Shown: positions 49,018-63,567 of the stretch, piece after piece | Layout of the letters: every line of letters begins with the position of its first letter | Position numbering within the stretch: the stretch's first letter is position 1 | From: Mycolicibacterium arabiense | GTDB lineage: Bacteria > Actinomycetota > Actinomycetes > Mycobacteriales > Mycobacteriaceae | Assembly (NCBI RefSeq): GCF_010731815.2 | Contig: NZ_AP022593.1 | Location: 4,464,001 to 4,528,000 of the forward strand | Direction: 5' to 3' | DNA length: 64,000 bases | Made by a program: the position numbers and the translations under genes | The notes under the pieces: generated by a model | Told to the model about the DNA's origin: nothing | What the model saw: only the letters and a program-made list of their open reading frames with translations | Database searches by the model: none

Positions 49018-49406
49018 ACCCCGCACGCACTTCCTTCCGCGAGCAGACGCGGGATCGCACTGAACCGACCTCGGTCGTGCGATTCCGCGTCTGCTCGTCG
49101 TCGTTGACGGGCTGACACGCGAGGCCAGGTGCGGCCGCAACGTACCCAGACGTACTTCGTGGTTTGCCTGACGCAGTCGTCAGCACGCGCTCGCGACGCC
49201 GCGAACTGCGCGAATCCATCCGTCGACGTACTGGTTGAGTCGTAGGTCACACTTCTTCGGATTCGCTACGCCAACACTAGCAACGTTTTGGCAATCACGT
49301 GTACGGTGACCAAGCCGGACCAGTTCTGCATGTCGACCCTGGTGAAAATGTATTTTGGCCCGGTGCAGCTAAGTAAATGTGCAACAGATTGCGAATTGAG
49401 CGAAGT
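49018..49406. other. 389-nt spacer between igr operon and polysaccharide locus
   Basis: No credible gene. The left part holds the 20-bp-stem hairpin (49041-49096). The right part (about 49260-49406) is clearly more AT-rich than its surroundings, with runs such as GTGAAAATGTATTTTGG, and presumably contains the promoter of the rightward polysaccharide operon. No specific operator was recognised. Confidence 0.6.
49041..49096. terminator. Strong hairpin downstream of ltp2 (20-bp stem, 16-nt loop)
   Basis: GAGCAGACGCGGGATCGCAC (49041-49060) pairs with GTGCGATTCCGCGTCTGCTC (49077-49096); 19 of 20 pairs are Watson-Crick and the exception is G-U. It starts 24 nt after the ltp2 stop. There is no U-tract, as usual for mycobacterial terminators. 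It may alternatively be a member of a dispersed palindromic repeat family. Confidence 0.7.
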
Positions 49407-50972
49407 ATGTCGGATGTGCCGTCGAGCCCCTCGGGGGAGTACGCAGCGGTACGTGCCGACGGCGACGGCTCTTCATCCGGGGAATCCGAGGGTTCGCTGC
49501 GCCGCAAGATCGGCCTCGTCGCGTCGGCATCTGCGCTGGCACTGGTCGTTGGCGAACTGGTCACGCTCGCGCAGGTCGTGGCGCTGGCCCGGCTGCTGAC
49601 ACCCGCCGAGGTGGGGATCTTCACGGCAGGCACCGTGCTGACGACGGCGCTGTTCGACTTCGTCGAAGGCGGGCTGCGCGCAGCGCTGGTACAGCGCGGA
49701 GGGCGCATCGACGACGCCGCGGAGACGGTGTTCCGCGCGACGCTGCTCAGCGGTGCAGTGCTGTGCGTCGGCGTACTCGCCATCGCCCCGGTGGTCAGCA
49801 TGGTGTTCGACGATCAGACCGTCGGCCTGGTCGCCGCCGCCACGTCCGGCACCCTGCTGCTCTTCGCCCTCACCAACGTGCCCGAGGCGATGCTGCAGCG
49901 GGACTTCAACGTCCGCAGGCGCATCATCGTCGGCCCGGCCGTATCGCTCACGTTCGCGACCGTGGCGGTCACGCTGGCCGCCTGCGGCTGGGGCGTGTGG
50001 AGCATGGTCGTCGGGTCCTACGCGTCGACGCTCGTCTGGGTCGTCGGCGTGTGGTGGATCAGTGGCTGGCGACCAGGTCGTGGCCGCTTCGACTTCACGC
50101 TGTGGCGCGAACTCGCCAAGTTCGGTTCACCGCTGGTGGCCTCGCAGGTGGGGTTCCGGGTCAAGGGCATCGCCGAAGCCGTCATCGTCGGCCGTTCCCT
50201 CGGCGCCGCCGAACTCGGCCAGTACCGCTATGCCCAGCGCATCGCCCAGATCCCGGAACGGATCATCGTCGACGTCGGCGCGGTGGCGCTGTTCCCCGCG
50301 TTCTCGCGGATCGCCCACGACGCCACCCGCATGCGATCGGGCTACCTGCGCGCACTGCAGTGGGCCATGATCGGCGGCGCGCCGCTGACCGCGATGATGA
50401 TCGTCCTCGGCGAACCCGCAGTGGTGGTCATCCTGGGCGAGCCGTGGCGGCATGCGGGCCACGCGGTGGCCGCGATGGCCGGACTGGGCATCGGCCGGGC
50501 CCTCGGCATCGTCGGCGAGGAGGCGATCAAGGGCGCGGGTCGCACCTCCCTGCTCAACTGGTGCACGGCAACCGAAGTCGGCGTCGGCATCGCGCTGGCC
50601 CTGGCGCTAGTGGGTCCGCTCGGACTCACCGGCGTCGCACTGGCCATCTCGATCACCACCATCCTGGTCGCGCTGATCGTCGCCAAGCTCGCCAAGCAGG
50701 TCGTCGACGTGCCCTACCGTTCCGTGGCCCGGGCCCTGCTGCCCTCGCTGCTCGCCGCCACGGCCGCCGCGCTCGTCACGGCCTATCTCGAACACGCCGT
50801 CGTACATGCCAATTCGACGACCGGTGCAGCAGCCATCGGGCTGCTCGCGCTCGACGTCCTGATCTTCTCGTCGGCCTACGTCGGAGCCCTGTGCCTGGTG
50901 GCGCCCAGCACGATGCGGCAGCTCGCCGGCGTCGGCATCGCCAAGGTCAAGCAGACGGTGGGACGCCCATGA
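49407..50972 (+). CDS. Polysaccharide flippase, Wzx/MOP superfamily
   Basis: Lipid-linked oligosaccharide flippase of the polysaccharide-transporter family. The 521 residues form about 12-14 hydrophobic segments after a 30-residue cytoplasmic, Ser/Gly/acidic N-terminus. Family traits are LAQVVALARLLTPAEVGIFT, NVPEAMLQRDFNVRRRIIVG, FGSPLVASQVGFRVKGIAEA and LGQYRYAQRIAQIPERIIVD. ATG 49407 is preferred over ATG 49377, though neither has a strong Shine-Dalgarno. First gene of the rightward operon; it would move the repeat unit to the outer face of the plasma membrane for the Wzy-like polymerase. Confidence 0.83.
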   Translation: MSDVPSSPSGEYAAVRADGDGSSSGESEGSLRRKIGLVASASALALVVGELVTLAQVVALARLLTPAEVGIFTAGTVLTTALFDFVEGGLRAALVQRGGRIDDAAETVFRATLLSGAVLCVGVLAIAPVVSMVFDDQTVGLVAAATSGTLLLFALTNVPEAMLQRDFNVRRRIIVGPAVSLTFATVAVTLAACGWGVWSMVVGSYASTLVWVVGVWWISGWRPGRGRFDFTLWRELAKFGSPLVASQVGFRVKGIAEAVIVGRSLGAAELGQYRYAQRIAQIPERIIVDVGAVALFPAFSRIAHDATRMRSGYLRALQWAMIGGAPLTAMMIVLGEPAVVVILGEPWRHAGHAVAAMAGLGIGRALGIVGEEAIKGAGRTSLLNWCTATEVGVGIALALALVGPLGLTGVALAISITTILVALIVAKLAKQVVDVPYRSVARALLPSLLAATAAALVTAYLEHAVVHANSTTGAAAIGLLALDVLIFSSAYVGALCLVAPSTMRQLAGVGIAKVKQTVGRP

Positions 50973-51012
50973 CCGCATCTCGAACCCCCGAACTTCAGCA
51001 CATGGAGGCGCA

Positions 51013-52440
51013 GTGAACCACGCTTGGAATCTCTACACCGACCGGATCCGTAGGCACCTCTGGCCGGTGCTCGCGCTCGGCCTGGCCGCCGCGATCGCGG
51101 GTTACGCGTTCGGCCTGTCCCAGCCCACGCACTACACCGGCTGGGCGACGCTCAGTACCGCGACGACCGATCGGGCCCCCGAGCAGGACGGCGTGCTGGC
51201 GTCGGGCTACGTCGACTACTTCAACAGCAGCGGCTACCAGAACAAGCTCAAGCGCACCGGCACCGTGCCCGCCGACGTGACGATGCACGCGCGGACGGCT
51301 GCGGCCAGCCCGATCATCTACGTGGAGGCGACGTCCGAGTCGCGCCCCTCGGCCGAGATCGCCGCTCCCGCAGCCGCGCAGATGTTCCGCGACGACATCA
51401 ACGCACAGCTGCAGGTGGCCAGGGACGAGACGATCGCCGCGGTCCGGAAGCCCTTCGACGACGCCCGTCAGGCCAACGGCGTGGCCTCGGGTGTGTCACT
51501 CGACCAGCTCCAGCAGCAGGTCAATCAGATCAACGCAGACAGCACCAACACCTTGAAGAGCATGCAGCTCGAGTCGGGGATGAGCGAGAGTTCGCCCAAC
51601 GCCTGGCCGGGTGCGCTGCTCGCGCTGATCGGCGGACTGCTGCTGGGCTGCCTCGTAGCCGTCGCGGCGGGCGCCGTCTCGCGTCGCACCCCCACGGCCG
51701 CCGAACTCGCGGCCAAGACCGGACTCGCCCCGATCGTCGAAGTGCCCGCGGCCAAGTCGGCGCGCAGCCGCGCCCTGCGGACCCACCGCGTCCAGCAGCT
51801 GGTCAACGCCGTCGGTCTGGCCGGACTACCCCAGCGTGCCGTCGTGACGTTGACGTCCACGGTCGCCACGGCCGAAATCGGGGACATGGCCCGCGAACTC
51901 GCCAGGGGTCGTGCCGCGCAGGGGCTGCGCACGGTGCTGGTGAACGCGGACCTGCACGCACCAGATGCGTTCGGGTTTGGCGAGGCGCTGCTGGACGAGA
52001 CGCTCGACCTCGACGCGATCCTGCGCACCACCGACACCCAGCTGAGCGAGATGTCGTCGGGGCGGGTGTCGGGTACGCCCTTCACCACCGTCACCGCGCC
52101 ACGCGTGGCCGCGCTACTGGCGCGGTTGACCGAGGAATTCGACTTCGTGGTCGTCGCGGCACCGCCCATCACCGATGCCGCGGAGTCCCAAATCCTCTGT
52201 GCGGCAGGCGACGGCGTATTGCTGGTCGTCGACGCGTCGAAGTCGCGTACGACCGACATCGCGGAAGCCTCGGCGCTGCTCACGTCGTTCGGCGCGCGAC
52301 TGATCGGATCGGTGCTCTCGGGAACGTCGCGGGCACGCGGCTTCACCGCCCGCGCAGGCAAGCCCGCTACCGCAGCGCCACGGGTGGACCAGCCGGTCGC
52401 GGGCCGCACCCCGGTGTACGCGGACGCCGCGGGCCAGTGA
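51013..52440 (+). CDS. Wzz-like chain-length determinant with degenerate BY-kinase-like domain
   Basis: Polysaccharide co-polymerase. The 475 residues have TM1 (about 15-35), a periplasmic part with a short coiled coil (SLDQLQQQVNQINADS), TM2 (about 195-220) and a cytoplasmic domain shaped like CpsD/Wzc-C. Nucleotide motifs are missing: the Walker A position reads TLTSTVATAEIGDMA with no GK(S/T), Walker A' reads VLVNADL (Asp to Asn) and Walker B VVVAAPP (Asp to Ala). No Tyr cluster ends the protein. GTG 51013 lies 40 nt after the flippase gene. Confidence 0.8.
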   Translation: MNHAWNLYTDRIRRHLWPVLALGLAAAIAGYAFGLSQPTHYTGWATLSTATTDRAPEQDGVLASGYVDYFNSSGYQNKLKRTGTVPADVTMHARTAAASPIIYVEATSESRPSAEIAAPAAAQMFRDDINAQLQVARDETIAAVRKPFDDARQANGVASGVSLDQLQQQVNQINADSTNTLKSMQLESGMSESSPNAWPGALLALIGGLLLGCLVAVAAGAVSRRTPTAAELAAKTGLAPIVEVPAAKSARSRALRTHRVQQLVNAVGLAGLPQRAVVTLTSTVATAEIGDMARELARGRAAQGLRTVLVNADLHAPDAFGFGEALLDETLDLDAILRTTDTQLSEMSSGRVSGTPFTTVTAPRVAALLARLTEEFDFVVVAAPPITDAAESQILCAAGDGVLLVVDASKSRTTDIAEASALLTSFGARLIGSVLSGTSRARGFTARAGKPATAAPRVDQPVAGRTPVYADAAGQ

Positions 52441-53507
52441 CGGTCCCCACGGCGCTGTGGGTGTCGACCAGCACCGAGACCAAGGGCGGTGTGTCGACGT
52501 TCGTCCGCAGCATGTTGACGACGCCGCTGCGTGAGCAGTGGGGGATCTCCCACGTCGCGAGCCACCGCGACGGCAGCGCAGCCGCCAAGGTCGTGCAGTT
52601 CCTCCTGGCACTGGTCCGATTCACCCACCGGATGGCGTGGCGCCGGCCGACGGTGGTGCACCTGCACGTGGCGTCACGGGGGAGCTTCTTCCGCAAGGCG
52701 ACGTTCGCGGGGATCGCGAGGGCCTTCGGCGTCCCGGTCGTGTCCCACGTGCACGGCGCGATGTTCGACGTGTTCTACGCAGGCTCACCGGCCGTGGTGC
52801 AATGGTTGGTCCGCGACATGCTCGCCCACTCCGCGGCCGTGGTCGCGTTGGGCGAGACGTGGGCGCAGCGGCTGCGTTCGATCGAACCGCGGGCGCGAGT
52901 CAGCGTCGTGCCCAACCCGATCCGCCCCGTCGGGGCTGCGGTGCAACCGGCTGCGGGCGAACCCGTGCGCGTGCTGTTCCTCGGCCGCATCGAGGACGAC
53001 AAGGGCGTGTTCACCCTCATCGAGGCATGGCGGACCATGACGGCGCGACTCGACGGTCGGACGTCGGCGCACCTCACCCTCGCCGGTGACGGCGAGGTGT
53101 CGCGGGCCCGCGATCTGGTCGCCGATCTCGGTCTGGAACCGTCGGTCGACGTCACCGGGTGGGTCGATCCGCGCCGGGTACCCGAGATGCTGCGGTCGTC
53201 ACAGGTGCTGGTCTTGGCCTCGCACTACGAGGGCCAACCGATGGCGGTGCTCGAGGCCATGGCCAACGGGTTGTGCGTCATCTCCAGCCCGGTGGGTGGC
53301 ATACCGGAGATGGTCGGTGACGACGCGGGCATCCTGGTGCCGCCCGGTGATGCCCGTCGCCTCGCCGAAGAGTTGTGCGACGTGGTCGAGAACCACCAGC
53401 GCAGAGCCGATCTCGGCAATGCGGCCTTGCGCCGGGTGCGTGACCGGTTCGACGTCGACGTGGCGTGGCGCGAGTTCGACGGCATCTACCGCGGTGCGCT
53501 CCGATGA
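52437..53507 (+). CDS. Glycosyltransferase, GT4 family
   Basis: Retaining, nucleotide-sugar-dependent glycosyltransferase of GT-B fold; sugar unknown. The 356-residue product has GGVSTFVRSM near the N-terminus, HLHVASRGSFFRKATF, VPNPIRPVG, FLGRIEDDKGVFTLIEAW and the donor-binding motif SHYEGQPMAVLEAMANGLCV followed by PVGGIPEMVGDDAGILVPPG. GTG 52437 overlaps the Wzz-like gene (GTGA). Cytoplasmic, adding a sugar to the lipid-linked repeat unit. Confidence 0.85.
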   Translation: MTVPTALWVSTSTETKGGVSTFVRSMLTTPLREQWGISHVASHRDGSAAAKVVQFLLALVRFTHRMAWRRPTVVHLHVASRGSFFRKATFAGIARAFGVPVVSHVHGAMFDVFYAGSPAVVQWLVRDMLAHSAAVVALGETWAQRLRSIEPRARVSVVPNPIRPVGAAVQPAAGEPVRVLFLGRIEDDKGVFTLIEAWRTMTARLDGRTSAHLTLAGDGEVSRARDLVADLGLEPSVDVTGWVDPRRVPEMLRSSQVLVLASHYEGQPMAVLEAMANGLCVISSPVGGIPEMVGDDAGILVPPGDARRLAEELCDVVENHQRRADLGNAALRRVRDRFDVDVAWREFDGIYRGALR

Positions 53508-55768
53508 CCGGACGGCCCCTGCGCGTGATGTACGTGGTGCCCGACCTCGGCCTCGGCGGAGCGGAGCGCCACGTCACGACGCTGATGCCCAACCTGGACC
53601 GCGCGCGCTTCGAACCGGCCGTCGTCTGCATCGGGGTCGAAGGGGAACTGTTCGCCGACCTCGGTGACGTCAGAGCCGTTGCGTTGCAGCGCAGCAAGCG
53701 CCAGGCATTCGGCGCGCTGCGGGACCTGATCCGCGAGATGCGTGCGTTCCGGCCCGACGTGGTCCTGCTGCGCGGCTACAACGCCGAGCTACTCGGCAGG
53801 GTCGCCGCCCGGGTCGCGGGCGTCCCGCACTGCGTGGTGTGGGTGCACAACCACTCCGACACCGAACCGCGCGGGGCGGTGCGTCGCATCGCCGACCGCG
53901 TCCTCGACCGGGGCACCACGGCCTACTTCGGGGTGGCCGAGGCCCAGCACGAATACCTGACCGACGACCTCGGGCACCCGGCCGACAAGATCCGGGTCAT
54001 TCACAACGGCGTCGAGCCGGCGGCCTACCGGTGCGACGACGACCGCCGTGCCGTCGCGGATTTGGGCATCGGCGATGGTGACCCGGTCGTGGGAATCGTG
54101 GCCGCGCTGCGACCCGAGAAGGATCACGCCAACTTCATGCGCGCGGCACGAAGTGTCGTCGACCACCTGCCCGAGGCGAAGTTCCTGATCGTCGGCGACG
54201 GCCCCATGCGCCCCGAGATCGAGTCGCTGCGCGACGAACTCGGCCTGGGCGACAACGTCGTGATGGCCGGCGCCCGCCACGACGTGCCAGACCTGCTCCG
54301 AGCGATGAACGTCGTGGTGCTCAGCTCCTTCAGCATCGAATGCTTCCCCATGGCGCTGCTCGAGGCGATGGCCGCGGGGCGCCCCGCAGTCTGCACCGAC
54401 GTCGGGGGCGTACGCGAGATGATCGACGAGGGCGTCACCGGCTACCTCGTCGCCCCACACGACCCCGGCGCACTGGCCCGGCGACTGCTCGACGTGCTGA
54501 CCGATGACGCGCTGGCACGCAGGATGGGTCGCGCGGCGCGCGCACGGGTCGAGGCGTCGTTCAGCCTGCGGGCCAGTGTCGCCAAGACCGAGGCGGTCCT
54601 CGACGAGTTGACCGCGGTGCGGCCGCCGCGGCCGGTCCGGCTGGCCGTGGTCATGGACCTGACTCACGTGGGCGGCGCCGAAGTGCTGCTGCTCGAATTG
54701 TTCCGCCGCTTCGACCCGCGGGCAGTGGTGCCGCGGCTCATCTGCCTGCGGGAAGCGGGCCCACTGGCCGACGACTTCCGCGCGGCGGGGTTCGACGTGG
54801 AAGTGCTGCACCGCACGGGCCGATTCGACGTGCGCACGCTGCCACGCCTCGTCCGGTCGCTGCGCGCCGACGCGACGGACGTCGTGCTGGTGAACCACCA
54901 TCACCGCGCTGCGCTCGCGCTCGGGCGCCTCGCCGCGCGCCTCACCCGGACCGCGAATGTCGTTGCCGCCCACGACATGGACCTCGCATCGGTGGGTGGC
55001 CGGGTACTACCGAGGTGGACGGTCGACACGCTCGCCTTCGCCGACGCCCTGATCTTGCTGTCGGAGAGTCAGCGCGACTATCTCCATCGCCGCGAGGGTG
55101 TCGGACGGTCGCGGCTGGCCACGACGCGCGAGGTCGTGATCGGAAACGGCATCGCGATGCCCGGGGTGCCGGCCGCCGCCGACCGGGCGCGCGCCCGCCT
55201 CCTGATCGGTGCGGTCGACGACGACTTCGTCGTGGGGATCGTCGCGCGGCTCAGCCCGCAGAAGGCCCACGAGGTGCTGTTCGCCGCCGTGGCCAAGGCG
55301 GCCTGCGAGGTACCCCGCATTCGCCTCGTCGTCGTCGGCGGCGGCGACCGCGAGGCCGAACTTCGCGCGCTGGCAGACGAACTCGGCATTCACGAGCGGA
55401 CCCGATTCCTCGGCGTCCGGCGTGACGTCGCCGATCTGCTCCCGGGCCTCGACGTCGCCTGCCTCTCCTCGGTGCACGAGGGCGTCCCCATCACGCTCAT
55501 CGAGGCGATGGCCGCCGCGCTGCCCGTGGTCGCCACCGACTGCGGCGCGGTCCGCGACCTGGTCGTCGACGGCGAGACGGGTTTCGTCGTCCCGGTCGGC
55601 GACGCCGACCAGCTCGCCGAGCGGCTGGTGCGCCTCGCCTGCGACGACGCGGCGCGTGTTCGGCTGGGCGCGCACGGCAGACAGCGGGCCGAGCGGCACC
55701 ACGACATTGGTTGCACGGCAGCCGGTTACGAAGACCTACTCCAACGATTGATTCGAGGAACACGATGA
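53504..55768 (+). CDS. Tandem GT4-GT4 glycosyltransferase
   Basis: A 754-residue protein with two complete GT4 modules. The first (about 1-385) has MYVVPDLGLGGAERHVTTLM, VIHNGVEPAAYR, SSFSIECFPMALLEAMAAGR and GVREMIDEGVTGYLV. The second (about 395-754) restarts with VVMDLTHVGGAEVLLLELFR and has EVVIGNGIAM, SVHEGVPITLIEAMAAALPV and GAVRDLVVDGETGFVV. Both donor-site Glu motifs are intact, so it may add two consecutive sugars. ATG 53504 overlaps the preceding GT gene (ATGA). Such fusions are known but uncommon in mycobacteria. Confidence 0.84.
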   Translation: MTGRPLRVMYVVPDLGLGGAERHVTTLMPNLDRARFEPAVVCIGVEGELFADLGDVRAVALQRSKRQAFGALRDLIREMRAFRPDVVLLRGYNAELLGRVAARVAGVPHCVVWVHNHSDTEPRGAVRRIADRVLDRGTTAYFGVAEAQHEYLTDDLGHPADKIRVIHNGVEPAAYRCDDDRRAVADLGIGDGDPVVGIVAALRPEKDHANFMRAARSVVDHLPEAKFLIVGDGPMRPEIESLRDELGLGDNVVMAGARHDVPDLLRAMNVVVLSSFSIECFPMALLEAMAAGRPAVCTDVGGVREMIDEGVTGYLVAPHDPGALARRLLDVLTDDALARRMGRAARARVEASFSLRASVAKTEAVLDELTAVRPPRPVRLAVVMDLTHVGGAEVLLLELFRRFDPRAVVPRLICLREAGPLADDFRAAGFDVEVLHRTGRFDVRTLPRLVRSLRADATDVVLVNHHHRAALALGRLAARLTRTANVVAAHDMDLASVGGRVLPRWTVDTLAFADALILLSESQRDYLHRREGVGRSRLATTREVVIGNGIAMPGVPAAADRARARLLIGAVDDDFVVGIVARLSPQKAHEVLFAAVAKAACEVPRIRLVVVGGGDREAELRALADELGIHERTRFLGVRRDVADLLPGLDVACLSSVHEGVPITLIEAMAAALPVVATDCGAVRDLVVDGETGFVVPVGDADQLAERLVRLACDDAARVRLGAHGRQRAERHHDIGCTAAGYEDLLQRLIRGTR

Positions 55769-57114
55769 AGGGTCACGTCCTAATCCTGGTCGAGAATCTG
55801 TCCGTGCCGTTCGACCGACGGGTGTGGCAGGAGAGCCGGGCGTTGGTCGACGCCGGCCACCAGGTAACCGTCATCTGCCCGAAGGGCACCAAGCAGGACG
55901 TCGAGGCCGAGGCGGTGATCGACGGCGTGCGCATCCTGCGCTACCCCCTGCAGGCGGCCAGCGGTGGTCCGATCGGCTACGTCCGCGAGTACGGGCTCGC
56001 GCTGTTCCACACGATGCGGCTCGCCCTCAAGGTGCGGCGCAACGGTCCGATCGACGTCGTGCACGCATGCAACCCGCCCGACGTCTTCTTCATCGTGGCC
56101 TTGATGCTGAGGGTGCTCGGCGGTACCCGGTTCGTGTTCGACCAGCACGACCTGTGCCCCGAATTGTTCCAGTCCCGCTTCGCCACCGGCGGCAAGTGGC
56201 TGTACCGCATGACGCTGCTCGTCGAGCGCATCACGTTCGCCGCTGCCGACGCCGTGATCTCCACCAACGAGAGCTATCGGCAGGTTGCCATCGGCCGCGG
56301 CAAGATGACACCCGAACGGGTCGCGGTGGTCAGGAGTGCGCCGGACCTGTCTAGGTTCGTCCGGCGTCCGGCCGATGCGGACCTGCGCAAGGGCAAGCGC
56401 TACCTCGGTGCCTACCTCGGCGTCATGGGTCCCCAGGACGGAGTCGACTACGCACTGCGCTCGATCTCACACCTTCGGGACACGCTCGGGCGCAAGGACG
56501 TTCACTTCGTGTTCATGGGTGGCGGCGACATGCTCGACGACATGGTGCTGCTCGCCGCCGAACTCGGGATCTCCGAGATGGTGGAGTTCACCGGCCGGGT
56601 GCCGGACGAGTTCGTCCAGCGCTGCCTGTCCACCGCCGACGTCTGCCTGTCGCCGGACCCGAAGAACCCGCTGAACGACGTGTCCACGATGAACAAGGTC
56701 GTGGAGTACATGGCGATGTCCGCGCCGCTGGTGTCGTTCGACCTCGTCGAGGCCCGGGTGTCGGCAGGGGAGTCGGCGGTGTACGTTCCCGCCAACGACG
56801 AGGCGGCGTTCGCCGTGGCCATCGACGAGTTGCTCGACGATCCGGACAAGCGCGCCGCGATGGGCGCACTGGGTCGGGCCCGCGTCGAAACGGCGCTCTC
56901 CTGGGAGAACTCGCGCCGCAACCTGATCAAGTTCTACGACATGGTGTTCGCCGACGTGGTTCGTCCGCGCCAGGGCCTGACCCCGGTGTCAGAACCTCGC
57001 GCGCGGAATGCGGACGTACTGCTGCTCCGTCGTCCCGCGGCAGCGATCGATCACACCCACCGCCATGCCCACGAGGCCGAACGCGAGGGCGTTCGGGTAG
57101 TCAAGCAGGCGTAG
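55765..57114 (+). CDS. Glycosyltransferase, GT4 family
   Basis: GT-B glycosyltransferase, probably of the WbuB/pilin-type GT4 group. The 449-residue product has LSVPFDRRVWQESRALVDAG, HACNPPDVFFIVALMLRVLG, FVFDQHDLCPELFQSRF, NESYRQVAIGRG, FTGRVPDEFVQRCLSTADVC and SPDPKNPLNDVSTMNKVVEY, MAMSAPLVSFDL. ATG 55765 overlaps the previous gene by 4 nt. The last ~40 codons (56989-57114) run antisense into the opposing polymerase gene and look unlike GT sequence, so the native protein may carry a meaningless tail. Confidence 0.83.
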   Translation: MKGHVLILVENLSVPFDRRVWQESRALVDAGHQVTVICPKGTKQDVEAEAVIDGVRILRYPLQAASGGPIGYVREYGLALFHTMRLALKVRRNGPIDVVHACNPPDVFFIVALMLRVLGGTRFVFDQHDLCPELFQSRFATGGKWLYRMTLLVERITFAAADAVISTNESYRQVAIGRGKMTPERVAVVRSAPDLSRFVRRPADADLRKGKRYLGAYLGVMGPQDGVDYALRSISHLRDTLGRKDVHFVFMGGGDMLDDMVLLAAELGISEMVEFTGRVPDEFVQRCLSTADVCLSPDPKNPLNDVSTMNKVVEYMAMSAPLVSFDLVEARVSAGESAVYVPANDEAAFAVAIDELLDDPDKRAAMGALGRARVETALSWENSRRNLIKFYDMVFADVVRPRQGLTPVSEPRARNADVLLLRRPAAAIDHTHRHAHEAEREGVRVVKQA

Positions 57115-58488
57115 GTCGGCGAAGAGGCCGAGGATGGTCAGCGCGGTCAGGCCCATCAGCGCGGTGAGTACGAGGGGCCTGCCGAGCAGGCCCTCGGTGG
57201 GCATCGCGCGGATGCCCCGGAGCAGCGCACCGAAGATCAGACCGAGAACGGCCAACCACATCAGCAGACCGACGATGCCGAGTTCGGCCAGGATCCCCAG
57301 CTCGTTGAAGTGCGACGCCACCCCGAGTCCGCGGATCCACGGCACGTCTTCCGACGCGCGTTGGTGGTGGAACGTGTTGACCGCGAGGAAGCGGCCGAGA
57401 CCCCAGCCGAACCAGGGCTTCTCGGCGAACGCCCACAGGGCGGTCGCGTCGGCGTTGAGCCGGTCGAAGACCTCGTTGGTGGACGCGATGCCACCCTGCT
57501 CCCGGTCCGAACTCGAGAACGACTGCCAGTTGGCGGCAACCCCTGCCGCCAGCAGCCCCAGCGTCACCAGATAGGGCCTGCGGATGCCCTTGGCCATGGT
57601 TGCGCCGATCACGACGACCACCACGAAGCCGAAGTACACCGCCCGGGTGTGGGTGAGGTAGATGGCGTACGTGCACGCGGCCGCGATGGTCCACAGCAGC
57701 AGCCGGCGCCAGCGGGGATGGGGCAGTGTGCTGGCGAGCAGGACGGCGACGGCGTAGCCGATGATCAGCACGACGCCGTTGGCGCCAGGCTGATTCAGTA
57801 GTCCATTGGCGCGCTCGGTGTAATTCGGCGCATCGACGACGTAGCGCGGCCACACCAGCGCCCGGGGGCCGGTGAACTGCATGATGCTCACCGCGGCGGA
57901 GTACGACGCGAAGGCCAGCGACGCGACGAGCAGTGTCCGCACCGCGGCCAGCGTCGTGATCGCCGAACGGGCGACGAAGTAGACGACGAACGGAATCACC
58001 GTGCCGATGAGCAGGTAGCGCCACAGCGAGAGTTGGTCGGTGAGTTCGGGATCCACCAGCGCGGGCAGCTCGTGGCTACCCAGGATGGAGAACACGTTCC
58101 ACGCGACGTATAGCAGCATGGCGATCTCGATGCCGCCCAGCTTGAGACGATGCCGGCGATTCGCCGCCCACCACGCCCCGAAGGACACGACGAGCAATGC
58201 GAACGCGGCCAGGAACGGGTCGGCCCCGACACTGGGCAGCGCCAGACGCATCAGGAGCGTGACGAGCAACAGGATCACGGCCCACAGCGGGCTACGCAGA
58301 CCGACCACGACCAGCGGCACGGCTACGGCGACGGTGAGGGCAGTCCCGGCGAACCCGCCCGAGAGCCCGGCACCTGCAACGGTGGCGGCCGCGGCAACGC
58401 CGAGCAGCGCCGCGACTACGAGGCGAACCGTCCACTGCGACCGGCTGCAGGTCTCCGGTTCACCCGTGGGTAGCGCGGTGTCGACCAT
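56989..58488 (-). CDS. O-antigen ligase/polymerase (Wzy-like) membrane protein
   Basis: Probable repeat-unit polymerase or ligase. The 499 residues form 11-13 hydrophobic helices with a large external loop typical of the Wzy_C/O-ag_ligase family: the conserved EKPWFGWGLGRFLAVNTFHH region (with its Gly/His pattern), followed by ASHFNELGILAELGIVGLLM. The start ATG 58488 shares one base with the stop of the second Wzz-like gene. The C-terminal end overlaps the convergent glycosyltransferase gene by 126 nt. Confidence 0.8.
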   Translation of the reverse strand: MVDTALPTGEPETCSRSQWTVRLVVAALLGVAAAATVAGAGLSGGFAGTALTVAVAVPLVVVGLRSPLWAVILLLVTLLMRLALPSVGADPFLAAFALLVVSFGAWWAANRRHRLKLGGIEIAMLLYVAWNVFSILGSHELPALVDPELTDQLSLWRYLLIGTVIPFVVYFVARSAITTLAAVRTLLVASLAFASYSAAVSIMQFTGPRALVWPRYVVDAPNYTERANGLLNQPGANGVVLIIGYAVAVLLASTLPHPRWRRLLLWTIAAACTYAIYLTHTRAVYFGFVVVVVIGATMAKGIRRPYLVTLGLLAAGVAANWQSFSSSDREQGGIASTNEVFDRLNADATALWAFAEKPWFGWGLGRFLAVNTFHHQRASEDVPWIRGLGVASHFNELGILAELGIVGLLMWLAVLGLIFGALLRGIRAMPTEGLLGRPLVLTALMGLTALTILGLFADLRLLDYPNALAFGLVGMAVGVIDRCRGTTEQQYVRIPRARF

Positions 58489-59912
58489 CAGGACCGCCCC
58501 CGCGCGGTGCGCTCGACGAGCACGACGCCGACCAGTCGTCCGTCGACCTGCGCCACGGTGCGGATCGATTCCTGGACGTCGATCAGCGAGGTGCCCACCT
58601 CGACGACCAGCACCACGGAGTCACTCAGGTCACCGAGCACCTGGGCCTCCCCGGCTCGCGACATCGACGGCGTACTGACGACGATCAACCGGGCCCGTTC
58701 GCGAAGGCTGGTCAGCACGGCCTGCACGGCTGCCCTGTCGAACAACTCGTACGGATCGCCGTTCGTGGTGCCGGGCCGGACCACGTCGAGGTCGTCGGCC
58801 GTGTTCTCCACCATGAAGTCGACCTCGGAGGGCGCCCCGGACGCCAGTAGTTCGGCCAGACCCGGTCGCTTGTCGCCGCCGTCGCGCAGATCGGCCTGCA
58901 CCAGCACGGTCCGCTCGCCCTGTGCCGCGCGTTGTCTCGCGATGTCGTCGGCCAGGTCGTGTGCCGCACGGCCCGTGCCCGCGGGCGCCACGGAAACGGT
59001 CACGGGGCGGCCGTCGGCGTCGCGCACCAGGAGATTCAGCAGGTGTTGCACCCGAACGGCACGGGTTCCCGCGTGCGCGGCATCGCCAGGGGCGGGAAGC
59101 ACGTCGAGCGGTTCGATCCCTAGCTTGTCGACGAGGTCGTAGTCCGTGTCGATGCGCCGTGCCGCGTTCGCCGCGAACAGCGCAGCAGCACATCCCAATA
59201 CGAGACCCGCCGCGAGCGACATGGCAATCGTGGTGACCCGACCCGCGCCGATCTCGGTGACACCGCCCTCTGGTTCGAGCAGCGTGACCTGGTTGGACGT
59301 GTCGGCATTCAATTCGTTGATCTGCGTCTGCAGGGAATTCTGGGCGTCCACCGCCTCCGGATCGGTGCGGTCGCCGTACTCGGCACGCAACCGCTCGAGC
59401 ATCGCCGCCACGTTGTCGTCCCGTTGCGACACCATCGAGGCGTTGATCTCGGCGGCGAACGTCCGCGCCATCGCGGTCGCCGCGCTCTGTGCGGTCTCGG
59501 CCGACCCCGACGTCGCGGTGACGAAGAAGACCGGACCCAGTCCCGCGGTGCGAGCGCTGAATCCGCCGACGTCGCCGGTCACCTTCGCCCGGTCGGCCAG
59601 GCCGCTGGCGTAGTCGCCCTCGTTGAAGAACATCACGTAGCCCTGCGACAGCGCCGCGTCCTCCAGCGGGGCGCGGTTCACGCTCGCCGCCGACAGCACC
59701 GCCTGGCCGGTGTACTGGGTCGTCGACGCCGCGGCCGCGGCGATACCGCCGAGACCGGCGATCGCGACGATGGCCGCGACGAGCCACTTGCGTCGGCGGA
59801 TCCGATCGACCTGGATGGCCAGGCCGCCGGGGCGCCGGTCGGTCGGGGTCAGTGGATCCGAGTGCACCCGAGCCTCAGTGGCGTCCGGTGTCGGAGTATT
59901 CGTGCGGGTCAA
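58488..59912 (-). CDS. Second Wzz-like protein with degenerate BY-kinase-like domain
   Basis: A 474-residue paralogue of the protein at 51013-52440, with the same layout: TM1 (about 40-62), periplasmic region with RAPLEDAALSQGYVMFF paralleling RAPEQDGVLASGYVDYF in the other copy, TM2 (about 225-245) and a cytoplasmic domain. Its P-loop position reads SVAPAGTGRAAHDLAD (no Lys), Walker A' VLVQADL and Walker B VVSTPS. The start is TTG 59912 with GAAGGGGA 6-7 nt upstream, giving the same length as its paralogue; an ATG 42 nt further left is less likely. Coupled to the Wzy-like gene. Confidence 0.78.
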   Translation of the reverse strand: MTRTNTPTPDATEARVHSDPLTPTDRRPGGLAIQVDRIRRRKWLVAAIVAIAGLGGIAAAAASTTQYTGQAVLSAASVNRAPLEDAALSQGYVMFFNEGDYASGLADRAKVTGDVGGFSARTAGLGPVFFVTATSGSAETAQSAATAMARTFAAEINASMVSQRDDNVAAMLERLRAEYGDRTDPEAVDAQNSLQTQINELNADTSNQVTLLEPEGGVTEIGAGRVTTIAMSLAAGLVLGCAAALFAANAARRIDTDYDLVDKLGIEPLDVLPAPGDAAHAGTRAVRVQHLLNLLVRDADGRPVTVSVAPAGTGRAAHDLADDIARQRAAQGERTVLVQADLRDGGDKRPGLAELLASGAPSEVDFMVENTADDLDVVRPGTTNGDPYELFDRAAVQAVLTSLRERARLIVVSTPSMSRAGEAQVLGDLSDSVVLVVEVGTSLIDVQESIRTVAQVDGRLVGVVLVERTARGRS

Positions 59913-59972
59913 CGGTCGTCCCCTTCGAGAGATCGGGGATCGCGCGGATCCCATGGGTCGCTGCGAGCGACG

Positions 59973-61607
59973 TCAGTTCACGCGGCAGACGTCGGTCATG
60001 CCGAGAGATCGGATGTAGGACTCGTCGACGTCGTCGCCGCGATAGCGGAAGGACGTGGTGTCGGCGACGGGGACCGGCGAGCAGGACTCGCCGAGTCGCG
60101 CGATGAGGTCATTGCGCACGTAGAACCACGTACCGGAGGCCGTGATCGGCGAATACGCCGTCCGAAACTGCGTCAGCGCGTAGACGTCTGAGGCACTCGA
60201 CCAGACGGAGTGCGTGATGATCGCATCGGGTCGATGGCTCGCCAGGTACGGACCAAGCGCCCGGTAGCCGTTGCGGGCGAGTTCGCGGTTGGTCAGAAGT
60301 CCGGAGTCGAGGATCTCGAAGTTCTCGCAGCACAGGCTGGCTCCCCCGACGTCGGGGGTCAGCAGCGAGAACTGCTCGGCGCCGAGTGCGCGCCGCACGG
60401 TGTCGACCGCCTCGGCCGAATCACGGTAGGCCGCGGGGGTGATCGCGTCCGTGCGACCGGGTTCCAGTACCGCGTCGACGCGTTCGCCGTCGACGCCGTA
60501 GCAGGCCACCGCCAGCATGGCGACGACGACGCACGCCAGCCGCATCGGCGACTCGAGTGCTCGCATCGCGCGGGGGAGGCAGAACGCCACGTTCACGACG
60601 GCCAGTGCCACCAGCGACTGTTCCATCCGGCCGAGGTATCCCCAGTTCGGACCGAGCACCAGGTTGGCGCCCACCACTCCGGCGAGGTAGCCCACGGCGA
60701 ACGCGATTGCCGGTGACACCGTCCGTGCTCGCAGCCGGGCCAGCGGGTTCGGCAGAGCGGGGAACCGCCTGCCGAGCAGGGCTCCGGCGCCAACGATCAG
60801 TCCTGGGGTCACCACGAGCAGTAGCTCCTTGACCACGGTCTTGCTCATCGCGACGCGTTCTGCGAGCGAGGTGCCGTACGGGTATGGGGGAGACTGCTTG
60901 GCCAGCATGGTGTTTGGCAGCACCGAGTCGAACACGGCGTAGCGCAGTGCGGTCAACAGGAGCGCGGAGGCGAGCACGCCGAGGATCAGCGCACCACCGC
61001 GGCGACGACTGCGCGTGACCAATGCGATCAGCACGGCACCCGCGATGACGTAGCCCGACGCCTCGAGCCGGATCCAGGGGATGAGCGCTGCGAGCGCGAA
61101 CAGGACGGACGTGGGGCGCCGGGTCCGCAGCGCCCACAGGACGGCCAGGGTGACGGCGCTCAACGCCGTCATCTCCATGCCGTTGGCGGTCTCGTTCAGG
61201 AATGCGGTGGAGACGAACACCACGAAGGACACCACGACGGCGGACCGGCCAAGGAAGGGGCGGAGCAGTCGGTGCAGCAGTACGGCGCCGACTGCTGCGA
61301 ACAGACCCGCCCACAGCTGGCTGGCCAGCACCATGCCGTCGAAGCCCAGCGGCAGTACCCGGTAGGTCGCTGCGAGCAGCGCCATCCAGAATGGGCTCGA
61401 ATAGCCCTCCACCACTTCCGACAACGGTGTCAGCGCGATGCGCCCCGTGTCGGCGAACGTGCGCGCGAACGCGACGGTGATCGATCCGTCGTCCCAGCCC
61501 CGCATGCCCACCAGCAGTGCCACCGCGGCGTGGACCGCGATAACCGCGACGAACAGCATCGACGCCGTCGACGTGGTGACGGTACGGCGGGACTCAGTCA
61601 GCAACAT
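59973..61607 (-). CDS. GT-C-type polytopic membrane glycosyltransferase (candidate)
   Basis: A 544-residue membrane protein with about 11 helices and a soluble C-terminal part. The first external loop reads RGWDDGSITVAFARTFADTG, matching the acidic DD motif of GT-C polyprenyl-phosphate-sugar-dependent transferases such as the mycobacterial AftB group, and continues VVEGYSSPFWMALLAA. The C-terminal part (about 400-544) has LTPDVGGASLCCENFEILDS and AIITHSVWSSASDVYALT. It would act on the outer face of the membrane. ATG 61607 overlaps the upstream lipoprotein gene by 14 nt. Family by topology and motif; specificity unknown. Confidence 0.7.
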   Translation of the reverse strand: MLLTESRRTVTTSTASMLFVAVIAVHAAVALLVGMRGWDDGSITVAFARTFADTGRIALTPLSEVVEGYSSPFWMALLAATYRVLPLGFDGMVLASQLWAGLFAAVGAVLLHRLLRPFLGRSAVVVSFVVFVSTAFLNETANGMEMTALSAVTLAVLWALRTRRPTSVLFALAALIPWIRLEASGYVIAGAVLIALVTRSRRRGGALILGVLASALLLTALRYAVFDSVLPNTMLAKQSPPYPYGTSLAERVAMSKTVVKELLLVVTPGLIVGAGALLGRRFPALPNPLARLRARTVSPAIAFAVGYLAGVVGANLVLGPNWGYLGRMEQSLVALAVVNVAFCLPRAMRALESPMRLACVVVAMLAVACYGVDGERVDAVLEPGRTDAITPAAYRDSAEAVDTVRRALGAEQFSLLTPDVGGASLCCENFEILDSGLLTNRELARNGYRALGPYLASHRPDAIITHSVWSSASDVYALTQFRTAYSPITASGTWFYVRNDLIARLGESCSPVPVADTTSFRYRGDDVDESYIRSLGMTDVCRVN

Positions 61608-62208
61608 CGATGACGATCCGCGTCGGGTTGGTCAGCGCCGTGACGTCGAAGGCGGGCTGATTGCCGTTGACGGTGACGAACACCTGCGTGATGCCCGCGC
61701 CCTGAGCCGAGAACTGAACGGTGTTGATCTGTGGCGTGGCCTGGTCGAAGACGACCGGCGGTCCGGTGTAGCCGGCAGGGCTCGAGAAGGGGCTCGGCGT
61801 CTCGAGGACAAGGACCTCCAGGACGGACTGCCCCGGTAGCGCGAGCACCTGGCCGGTGCCGTTCTGCAGCGGTGTCGTCACGTACTGGGCGGTCCACCCG
61901 GGCACCGCGGTGCCGGTGAAGGTCAGCACCGCGCTGTCGTGATCGCCCTGGCGGGCGACGGCCATGCTCGTCATCGAGATCGCCAGCGCCTCGGCGTCGG
62001 GTCTACGGGTCTTGCGTCCGATTCCCGCCTGTCGCAACGGAACCGGCTGCGAGGCGGTGGTGGGCGCCGACGACGTCATGGGCGCCGTGCTCTCGCCGGC
62101 AGACACGGCGTTGCTGCATCCGGACGCGAGTATCGCCAGGCAGACGAGCGGCGCCAGGTAGGCGGCGGTGCGGCGGCTAGCTCTCATGGTGCATCGTGTC
62201 AGCTCCAT
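61594..62208 (-). CDS. AMIN-like lipoprotein
   Basis: A 204-residue secreted lipoprotein with signal segment TAAYLAPLVCLAILASGC (lipobox ASGC). After a Ser/Thr-rich linker comes a beta-rich domain with HDSAVLTFTGTAVPGW, VLEVLVLETPS and ending FDVTALTNPTRIVIDVAD, resembling AMIN-like domains that bind cell-wall polymers. ATG 62208 (GAGGTG upstream, 3 nt after the glycoside-hydrolase-like gene) is chosen over ATG 62187. Probably a periplasmic or envelope component of the polysaccharide machinery; not an enzyme by any visible motif. Confidence 0.68.
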   Translation of the reverse strand: MELTRCTMRASRRTAAYLAPLVCLAILASGCSNAVSAGESTAPMTSSAPTTASQPVPLRQAGIGRKTRRPDAEALAISMTSMAVARQGDHDSAVLTFTGTAVPGWTAQYVTTPLQNGTGQVLALPGQSVLEVLVLETPSPFSSPAGYTGPPVVFDQATPQINTVQFSAQGAGITQVFVTVNGNQPAFDVTALTNPTRIVIDVAD

Positions 62209-62211
62209 CGG

Positions 62212-63567
62212 TCACCTCACCAAGACGATTCCGTCGTGGCCGTCGATGGTGACGGAGGCGGCGCGTACGCCGTCGTTCGTCACCGGGTCTTGGGTGCCCT
62301 GCAATCTCGCGTAGGGCCGTTCGAGTTCGATGCTGACCCGGCTGGGCGTGGTGTTCAACAGCACTATCCCGTTCTCGAAGTCGCGTCGCAGCACCCCGCC
62401 CAAGGGCGAACCGGTGCCTGCCTCGCGTGGTCGGGTGAGTGCGTCGACCGTCGGGTCGGGCTGCAGCGGACGGCCGAGGTAGCCCGGGCCGCGCCCGGCG
62501 CCATCCATCTCGTCGTAGTACTCGAGGACGCCGTAGTCCTTGCCCATCGGGGCCCAGTAGCCGTCCTGCAGCAAGGTGGCCACGAACCGGAACCTGGCCT
62601 TGCGCAACGCCACCGGTGAGCCCGGCGCCTCGCGGTCGGTGTTGACGTTGATCGAGACCGACGGCTGGCGCTGTCCGCCGCTGGACGCGGCGTCGACATA
62701 GGAGTAGACGTCGTCGATCGGGTCGGGCCGCACGGCGGGATCGGCGAAGCTCTCGAACACCCGTCCGTTGAGCAGGCCGTCGCGCAGAGTGCGGTTGCCG
62801 TTGGCCACCAGGATCGCGGTGGGCAGCGCGCTGCGCAGCCTGCGCTCACCAATGGTGAGGCCCCGGTCCCACGGGCCCCCTGGCGCGTAGATCTCGGCGT
62901 CGGTCTCGTCGACGCCATCGCGGTCGACGTCCCAGCGGTCGGCATCGGCGGTCCAGATGCGGTCACCCCAGACGTCGAGGAAGACCCCGTCCCAGATGCC
63001 AGCCGTCCAGACGGTGTCGACGATCCAGTCGGCGGCGTACTCCACGAAGAGCCGTCCGTCGACCCGCGGTGCGCGATCGGTGAGGTTCGCCATCACGCGG
63101 TCCTCCCACTCGTGCACGGGTGCGCCGGCCGCCGTCTTGGCGAGCCACTGGTCGGGGAATCGAAAGGCCTTGTCGTCCTTGGTGATCTGCCACATCGCGT
63201 AGGCGTTGCGCCAATATTCGTGGGACCCGATCTCGTGTACCGAGTCCACGACGTTGACGTAGGCCAGCAGTTCGAGGCGCGGGTTGCGCGCGTGCAGCCG
63301 ATCGAAGAACGAACGCGGCATCCGGTGGGCCCACTCGTTGTCGATCACGACGACGTCGTAGCGGGCGAGTTCGTCGACCGGCGGCAGTTCGTCCTGGTCG
63401 AGGTAGTAGGCGGCGGTTCTGGGGAACGTCGGCCCGGTCTCTGCGGCGCGGATGGGTTCGGCGCGCGACGTCGCGGTGCCGACGTTCGCGGCGCTGCAGG
63501 ACGCGATGAGCGCGGCCACCATCGAGTAGACGACGGCTCTGGTCACGACGCGCACGAGATCAGCCAC
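62212..63567 (-). CDS. Putative glycoside hydrolase lipoprotein (GHL15-like)
   Basis: A 451-residue exported lipoprotein (lipobox region AALIASCSA) with a TIM-barrel-like domain: YYLDQDELPPVDELARYDVV, VVIDNEWAHRMPRSFFDRLH, LLAYVNVVDS, TAGIWDGVFLDVWGDRIW, ILVANGNRTLRDGLLNGRVF and FVATLLQDGYWAPMGKDYGV. The DGVFLDVWGD segment would supply acidic catalytic residues. A calcium-type loop DVDRDGVDETDAE follows it. The family resembles hypothetical glycosyl hydrolase 15 (GHL15) rather than a characterised GH. Start GTG 63567 overlaps the upstream ligase gene by 8 nt. It could trim or release the polysaccharide. Confidence 0.68.
   Translation of the reverse strand: MADLVRVVTRAVVYSMVAALIASCSAANVGTATSRAEPIRAAETGPTFPRTAAYYLDQDELPPVDELARYDVVVIDNEWAHRMPRSFFDRLHARNPRLELLAYVNVVDSVHEIGSHEYWRNAYAMWQITKDDKAFRFPDQWLAKTAAGAPVHEWEDRVMANLTDRAPRVDGRLFVEYAADWIVDTVWTAGIWDGVFLDVWGDRIWTADADRWDVDRDGVDETDAEIYAPGGPWDRGLTIGERRLRSALPTAILVANGNRTLRDGLLNGRVFESFADPAVRPDPIDDVYSYVDAASSGGQRQPSVSINVNTDREAPGSPVALRKARFRFVATLLQDGYWAPMGKDYGVLEYYDEMDGAGRGPGYLGRPLQPDPTVDALTRPREAGTGSPLGGVLRRDFENGIVLLNTTPSRVSIELERPYARLQGTQDPVTNDGVRAASVTIDGHDGIVLVR

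Follow-up and report, generated by a model that had tools for sequence, protein, structure and literature searches.

Can a bacterium control the length of a polysaccharide with a co-polymerase whose kinase domain has lost its catalytic residues? The question is raised by two proteins of the environmental mycobacterium Mycolicibacterium arabiense, encoded in a stretch of 64,000 nucleotides (contig NZ_AP022593.1, positions 4,464,001 to 4,528,000; G000:C2:4464001-4528000 in our labels) that we call the window, and from whose first letter all positions are counted. The host genome, G000, has 6.45 Mb. The two genes, PK_A (51013..52440, + strand, 475 amino acids) and PK_B (58488..59954, - strand, 488 amino acids), each encode a fused Wzz-type co-polymerase with a pseudokinase domain. 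The current model makes polysaccharide co-polymerases of class 2 (PCP-2) dependent on tyrosine phosphorylation cycles (PMC12004946).

We propose, with a probability of about 0.72, that PK_A and PK_B are Wzx/Wzy co-polymerases in which a dead kinase domain acts as a scaffold, and in which chain length is set without a cycle of ATP and phosphotyrosine. The proposal is built on the computed fold, motif loss, selection, linkage and phylogeny; from these we infer a loss of ATP binding, a scaffold role, an effect on chain length, an absence of phosphorylation and a direction of duplication. In this actinobacterial family most of the phosphorylation cycle is gone, while the domain and its link to Wzy are kept: what does the domain do without the cycle?

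Kinase domains without catalytic residues

PK_A was delimited as an open reading frame (ORF) and identified by its match to the model TIGR01007, an AlphaFold2 structure and its place in a tree. PK_B can start at an ATG at 59954, which gives 488 amino acids, or at a TTG at 59912, which gives 474, is preceded by AAGGGG and is the start of the database protein P0022, as well as the one adopted in an earlier description of the locus. The two proteins are paralogues, with 35% identity across 451 amino acids. Their C-terminal domains match TIGR01007, a model of bacterial tyrosine kinases (BY-kinases), with E-values of 7e-16 for PK_A and 1e-12 for PK_B, both below the curated cut-off. Pfam gives a sub-threshold match to Wzz in PK_B (E 0.001), none being listed for PK_A, and a non-significant match to AAA_31 in PK_A (E 0.18).

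The AlphaFold2 models predict the layout of a PCP-2 in both proteins, two membrane helices around an extracytoplasmic domain. In PK_A the predicted helices are residues 16-35 (51058..51117, +) and 197-222 (51601..51678, +), arranged as in Wzc, and the extracytoplasmic domain carries the family signature RAPEQDGVLASGYVDYFN (51172..51225, +); in PK_B they are residues 56-76 (59727..59789, -) and 239-264 (59163..59240, -). The cytoplasmic pseudokinase domains, placed by TIGR01007, AlphaFold2 and structure matches, are residues 223-440 of PK_A (51679..52332, +) and 265-484 of PK_B (58503..59162, -). Compared with the PDB, the models of the single proteins both have the predicted fold of a BY-kinase, that of CapB or of the C-terminal part of Wzc, and align with Wzc over nearly their full length. 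They bear out a preliminary description of the locus, made from the sequence, which had proposed two paralogues with a two-helix co-polymerase layout and a Wzc-like C-terminal fold.

The motifs of the nucleotide site are largely gone. At Walker A, neither TSTVATAEIGD in PK_A (51853..51885, +) nor APAGTGRAAHD in PK_B (58956..58988, -) contains GK[ST]. Walker A' is half lost: in TVLVNADLHAP (51931..51963, +; core VLVNADLH) and TVLVQADLRDG (58878..58910, -; core VLVQADLR), the first Asp is missing and the second is retained. At Walker B, DFVVVAAPPI (52141..52170, +; core VVVAAPP) and RLIVVSTPSM (58662..58691, -; core IVVSTPS) have no Asp. The tail has one Tyr in 40 residues in PK_A and none in nine in PK_B. 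Neither protein thus has what marks an active BY-kinase: GK[ST], the DxD of A', the Walker B Asp and a Tyr-rich tail. The earlier statement that all ATP-binding motifs are lacking is correct for the Lys, the first A' Asp and the Walker B Asp, and too strong for the second A' Asp; the reported absence of a C-terminal tyrosine cluster stands. At the place of the EX2RX2R motif, which builds the octamer in BY-kinases, PK_A has RTHRVQQLVNAV (51778..51813, +).

Errors of sequencing or assembly were ruled out as a cause by matching losses in the metagenome protein P0003 and in Mycolicibacterium lacusdiani (L084), where both copies have lost the same motifs. This shared loss and the low dN/dS given below also speak against one isolated gene in decay, and similar degeneration occurs in related actinobacteria of soil. 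M. lacusdiani is the nearest named relative of the window locus in a scan of species genomes with the double glycosyltransferase of this cluster, and the eight cluster proteins other than PK_A and PK_B are 91-98% identical to their counterparts in it.

Between these two genomes, the ratio of nonsynonymous to synonymous substitution rates (dN/dS) is 0.097 for the whole of PK_A and 0.109 for its residues 226-440, and 0.140 for the whole of PK_B and 0.171 from residue 268 to the end. The N-terminal parts are more constrained (0.028 in PK_A, 0.115 in PK_B); for the neighbours, the values are 0.069 (Wzy), 0.088 (Wzx), 0.112 (the glycosyltransferase GT4c), 0.125 (a 544-amino-acid protein) and 0.129 (GHL15). 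Of 214 columns, the catalytic ones now belong to the less conserved part: the Lys ranks 135th, the Ser/Thr 207th, the first A' Asp 149th and the Walker B Asp 175th. The second A' Asp, in rank 26, is the best kept catalytic position, and the Pro after Walker B ranks 44th. Low dN/dS and poorly conserved catalytic columns together argue, by inference from sequence, that the domain is maintained for something other than catalysis.

A family linked to Wzy, with graded loss

The double glycosyltransferase of the cluster, used as a query in species genomes, found 63 loci, in Nocardia, Antrihabitans, Aldersonia, Gordonia, Williamsia, Rhodococcus, Mycobacterium, Pseudonocardia, Actinomycetospora, Geodermatophilus, Blastococcus, Modestobacter, Trujillonella, Trebonia and Desertimonas. 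Linkage was examined in 44 of them (L084-L126 and L128, with L127 left out). A family member and a Wzy match are both present in 40 loci, and in all 40 they lie at most 600 bases apart on the same strand. A PCP-2 is expected to be encoded with Wzx and Wzy, which is the case in the window, and the family adjoins Wzy throughout these loci. Three loci, L109, L118 and L122, gave no family member, and L121, from a metagenome-assembled genome (MAG) of Actinomycetota, has a family member and no Wzy match.

Direct searches complete the picture. A protein search, in which the nearly 8,000 candidates sharing most words were scored, returned 19 matches for PK_A and 10 for PK_B. Of 151 genomes from the same family-level group, with at most ten candidates scored in each, 14 have relatives at E < 1e-30, nine of these having two; some matches there contain internal stops. 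In the order, 190 of 298 genomes match a profile of the family with an E-value no higher than 1e-20; among the matches listed, only those of G281, G287, G370 and G380, besides G000 and G065, are nearly full-length (E ~1e-110), and most of the others span only profile positions ~200-460, as expected of other BY-kinases. Some members are extended at the C-terminus: by 630-676 amino acids, rich in Glu, Val and Pro and with a long charged end, in Williamsia (L048:6995-10384, L050:6875-10216 and L051:6615-9821), and by tails of 394-396 amino acids in Actinomycetospora (L123-L125).

The motifs were compared in an alignment of 95 proteins, of which 92 remained in the tree and in the counts after the weak matches L118, L136 and the second ORF of L089 had been dropped. 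Fifteen loci with duplicate or own content (L005, L039, L040, L042-L046, L048, L050, L051 and L056-L059) were removed ahead of the motif table; from L048, L050 and L051, however, the second Williamsia copies were returned to the alignment. P0013, a piece of the L085 protein, was left out, and P0017, P0018 and P0022-P0024 stayed outside the alignment. In the tree, the family forms one clade of 79 rows (support 100 in the Shimodaira-Hasegawa-like approximate likelihood ratio test, SH-aLRT), apart from 13 rows of canonical type; the outgroup as named is not one side of a branch, since L053, which was not named in it, fell inside. These 79 rows are not independent of each other, and two of them are identical, P0014 being counted along with the L107 copy.

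The first row to branch is L121 (L121:4745-8452), and the remaining 78 are grouped with support 97. With the motifs DEGKT, IDAN and LDTP, both Walker A and Walker B are intact in L121, and of the two A' Asp residues the first is kept and the second changed; its tail is five residues long, with no Tyr. Four of the 79 rows keep the Lys, 15 the first A' Asp and 10 the Walker B Asp; all three are lost in 57, and one row has full Walker A and B. The Lys is absent from the 75 rows other than L121 and three of Actinomycetospora (L123-L125), and a full Walker A from all of the 78-row group. In the 40 rows of the clades of PK_A and PK_B, hereafter A and B, the Lys and the Walker B Asp are never found and the first A' Asp is found in eight.

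Loss in both copies, which the preliminary description had emphasized, is seen here and in M. lacusdiani, and its weight changes: two independent losses are ruled out, the tree placing A and B within one 78-row group in which no row has a full Walker A. On this phylogeny, the losses of A and B are one ancestral loss, not two events. Uniform loss through the whole family is ruled out by L121 and L123-L125; with these exceptions, the orthologues have what defines a BY pseudokinase, a BY-kinase fold from which the Walker motifs and the Tyr tail are missing. The uniform absence of motifs sought in the homologs is true of the Lys and the Walker B Asp in the A and B set, and an intact P-loop in the orthologous group, named at the outset as grounds for refutation, occurs in one basal relative outside the pair-bearing clade. 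The data are suggestive of an order of loss, first the tail, then the P-loop, then Walker B, which is drawn from one basal MAG. L121 is a possible candidate for an intermediate in the loss of the phosphorylation cycle.

The duplicated copies and their possible roles

The pair is conserved in a subset of the family, less widely than first described. Eleven of the 40 Wzy-bearing loci visibly have two copies; the number rises to at least 14 with three Williamsia loci whose second copy, beyond the fetched flank, was seen in L048, L050 and L051. The other 26 have a single copy within the fetched stretch (10-kb flank), and one copy was seen in Gordonia tangerina. By the tree, A+B pairs make up nine of the 14. 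The four pairs of Williamsia form a group of their own (8 rows, support 91), which looks like a separate duplication, and Antrihabitans stalactiti (L098) has two copies whose placement is not firm.

Clade A has 24 rows (support 91) and clade B 16 (support 99). Both contain rows from Nocardia, Antrihabitans and the window type, and the duplication therefore predates their split. The window pair groups apart from the single-copy mycobacterial versions (L086, L113, L116, L119, L120 and L126), a position in the tree that suggests transfer or differential loss. The other genomes of the genus that were listed gave no full-length match, with 5-10 candidates scored in each. The grouping of the window pair with Antrihabitans and Nocardia would fit a horizontal transfer of the region 49377-63567.

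Gene order is constant in the ten fetched loci of the A+B clade besides the window (L084, L085, L105-L108, L111, L112, L115 and, mirrored, L041): Wzx, PK_A, GT4a, GT4x2 and GT4c face Wzy and PK_B. In the window, the Wzx-type flippase (49377..50972, +; PF13440, E 4.6e-55) precedes PK_A, which is followed by three glycosyltransferases of family GT4 recognized by Pfam: GT4a (52437..53507, +), the tandem double GT4x2 (53465..55768, +) and GT4c (55765..57114, +), with a start taken from the alignment in an ORF that opens at 55711. On the other strand, the Wzy-type polymerase (56989..58488, -; PF04932, E 4.7e-9) adjoins PK_B. Beyond it lie the 544-amino-acid protein (59973..61607, -), which is beside PK_B in L084 and L085 too, an AMIN-like domain protein (61594..62208, -; PF24837) and the putative glycosyl hydrolase GHL15 (62212..63567, -; PF14885). 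Pfam and NCBIfam scans gave no match for the 544-amino-acid protein, whose hydrophobic sequence suggests a membrane protein. GT4x2 has two GT4 units in tandem within one ORF; in Nocardia loci such as L105-L107, the ORFs that match it have only 387-435 amino acids, as if the units were separate genes.

How might such proteins work? PK_A and PK_B would act in the Wzx/Wzy pathway that assembles a putative exopolysaccharide encoded by the cluster. Each is a fusion resembling CapA-CapB, with a small extracytoplasmic Wzz domain between two membrane helices, then a cytoplasmic BY-kinase fold devoid of the residues of nucleotide chemistry and of the phospho-acceptor tail. This dead domain would probably hold the co-polymerase assembly together as a structural scaffold, and would probably dock on Wzy, perhaps on the cytoplasmic glycosyltransferases too; this model is patterned on EcpK/EpsV and HfsB/HfsA (PMC12004946). 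Chain length would then be set without assembly and disassembly driven by ATP and phosphotyrosine. One copy beside wzy is the usual state, and a duplication in the lineage of Nocardia, Antrihabitans and this mycobacterium would have put copy A in the wzx-glycosyltransferase operon, with copy B beside wzy. The conserved pseudokinase co-polymerase working without tyrosine phosphorylation, as first described, is upheld as far as computation goes, in fold, in motif loss (Lys and Walker B Asp in 0 of 40), in the missing Tyr cluster, in low dN/dS and in linkage to Wzy.

Several observations weigh against the proposal. The family is not uniformly dead: L121 still has both Walker A and Walker B along with the first A' Asp, and the three Actinomycetospora rows have SKT, with its Lys, and the Asp of Walker B. 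In 61 of 79 rows the second A' Asp remains, which makes a weak or unusual nucleotide site possible. Among the rows of canonical type, two also lack the Lys and two the tail Tyr. None of the 79 family rows has a complete EX2RX2R; as just 6 of the 13 canonical-type rows have one, little can be concluded from its loss, which was set aside as evidence. The tree was made by a quick method, with SH-aLRT supports only. Finally, the host genome encodes other Wzz-type proteins, and one of them, L003, a canonical-looking BY-kinase with GKS and four tail Tyr, could act in trans. In L001 (G000:C2 ~2.091 Mb), another Wzz/BY-kinase-like protein of this genome, Walker A reads GRS, the first A' Asp is replaced by Glu and the tail has no Tyr; L001 may be a further instance of degeneration, separate from the first.

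Why two copies? Mirror-tree distances over 11 related genomes remain correlated once two glycosyltransferase controls are taken into account (partial r 0.75 for A-B, 0.73 for A-Wzy and 0.82 for B-Wzy), which is weak support for contact; the low values for Wzx were not used, as Nocardia loci carry a second Wzx and the wrong copy may have been matched. It is conceivable, if tentative, that the copies have two functions as independent homo-oligomers, for example B setting chain length with Wzy, and A serving export or the supply of repeat units with Wzx and the glycosyltransferases. Their separation into a Wzx-glycosyltransferase operon and a Wzy operon in all ten loci fits this division, as does the 35% identity of A and B, a sign of old divergence. 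However, the distances of A track those of Wzy about as closely as those of B do, and the ORF and Pfam scan of the window cluster saw only one Wzx/Wzy set.

The same correlations, and the preservation of pair and layout in ten of ten loci, would suit a single hetero-oligomer, as the preliminary description had tentatively suggested, in the form of a mixed ring in which the ratio of A to B sets chain length; Williamsia, moreover, seems to have its own pair, which implies that pairs arose more than once. We find this rather doubtful: the single-copy loci indicate that a family member can work by itself, the 11 genomes do not count as independent, and fast-evolving membrane proteins may correlate regardless. 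Equally unlikely, or slightly more so, is the composite picture of an ATP-independent chain-length machine, with a mixed ring of PK_A and PK_B on Wzy, duplicated after the death of the kinase site in an actinobacterial family whose basal member bears a P-loop and no Tyr tail.

That the domains still bind nucleotide at a non-canonical site through the retained A' Asp, as slow ATPases or sensors, seems improbable. The high rank of this Asp and the intact predicted fold are in its favor, but the Lys and the Walker B Asp are gone throughout the A and B rows, and no replacement residue is conserved. Decay of non-functional domains on their way to loss, despite the wide variation in the catalytic columns, is hardly credible, dN/dS values of 0.11-0.17 in the domains ruling out its simple form and full-length members persisting beside Wzy in 40 loci.

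Comparison with known systems

Among the closest known systems is Wzc of E. coli and Klebsiella, a PCP-2 with a fused BY-kinase. It shares with PK_A and PK_B a single chain, two membrane helices and a C-terminal BY-kinase fold, with a model that aligns over 382 residues. PK_A and PK_B are shorter (475 and 488 amino acids against 720-738 in the PDB chains), and lack the Walker A Lys, the first A' Asp, the Walker B Asp and the Tyr tail. The modelled PK_A domain has its best match in the bipartite CapA/CapB of S. aureus (222 residues at 2.0 A). There the two parts are separate proteins and the kinase, CapB, is active (PMC12004946), whereas PK_A and PK_B are one chain each, without catalytic residues. 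PslE (PDB 9v6l, 9v75) matches the model over ~70 residues only, and literature searches turned up no paper on it.

Actinoplanes wps clusters contain proteins taken as Wzz, in an article whose main text has neither the word Walker nor the word tyrosine (PMC13390465). Among the titles and openings of abstracts consulted, a search outside which most subscription papers lie, we found no report of a dead-kinase co-polymerase in Actinobacteria or mycobacteria, which leaves its absence unproven.

Among pseudokinases, EcpK/EpsV of M. xanthus and HfsB/HfsA of C. crescentus share with our proteins the Wzx/Wzy pathway and a BY-kinase fold that has neither Walker motifs nor a Tyr tail. EcpK and HfsB are proposed scaffolds and separate proteins of Gram-negatives; several helices and strands are missing from EcpK (PMC12004946). 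PK_A and PK_B, in contrast, are fused, actinobacterial and duplicated in some lineages. They may, by analogy, work like EcpK plus EpsV, yet they fall outside the stand-alone kind, with its kinase-less PCP-2 partner. Fused PCP-2/BY-pseudokinases have been listed, after an earlier review, in Sinorhizobium (SMc01795), Brucella, Mesorhizobium and Vibrio vulnificus (PMC12004946); these are likewise single polypeptides with a dead kinase domain, Gram-negative, and likened here by description only.

The BY-pseudokinase idea was described for Gram-negatives (PMC12004946), and the present family would extend it to mycobacteria and their kin. From EcpK/EpsV and HfsB/HfsA it differs as a fused, actinobacterial family, mostly seen in single copy but duplicated in some lineages, with a basal member that has an intact P-loop; this relative, which lacks a Tyr tail, would let one ask in what order the cycle was dismantled.

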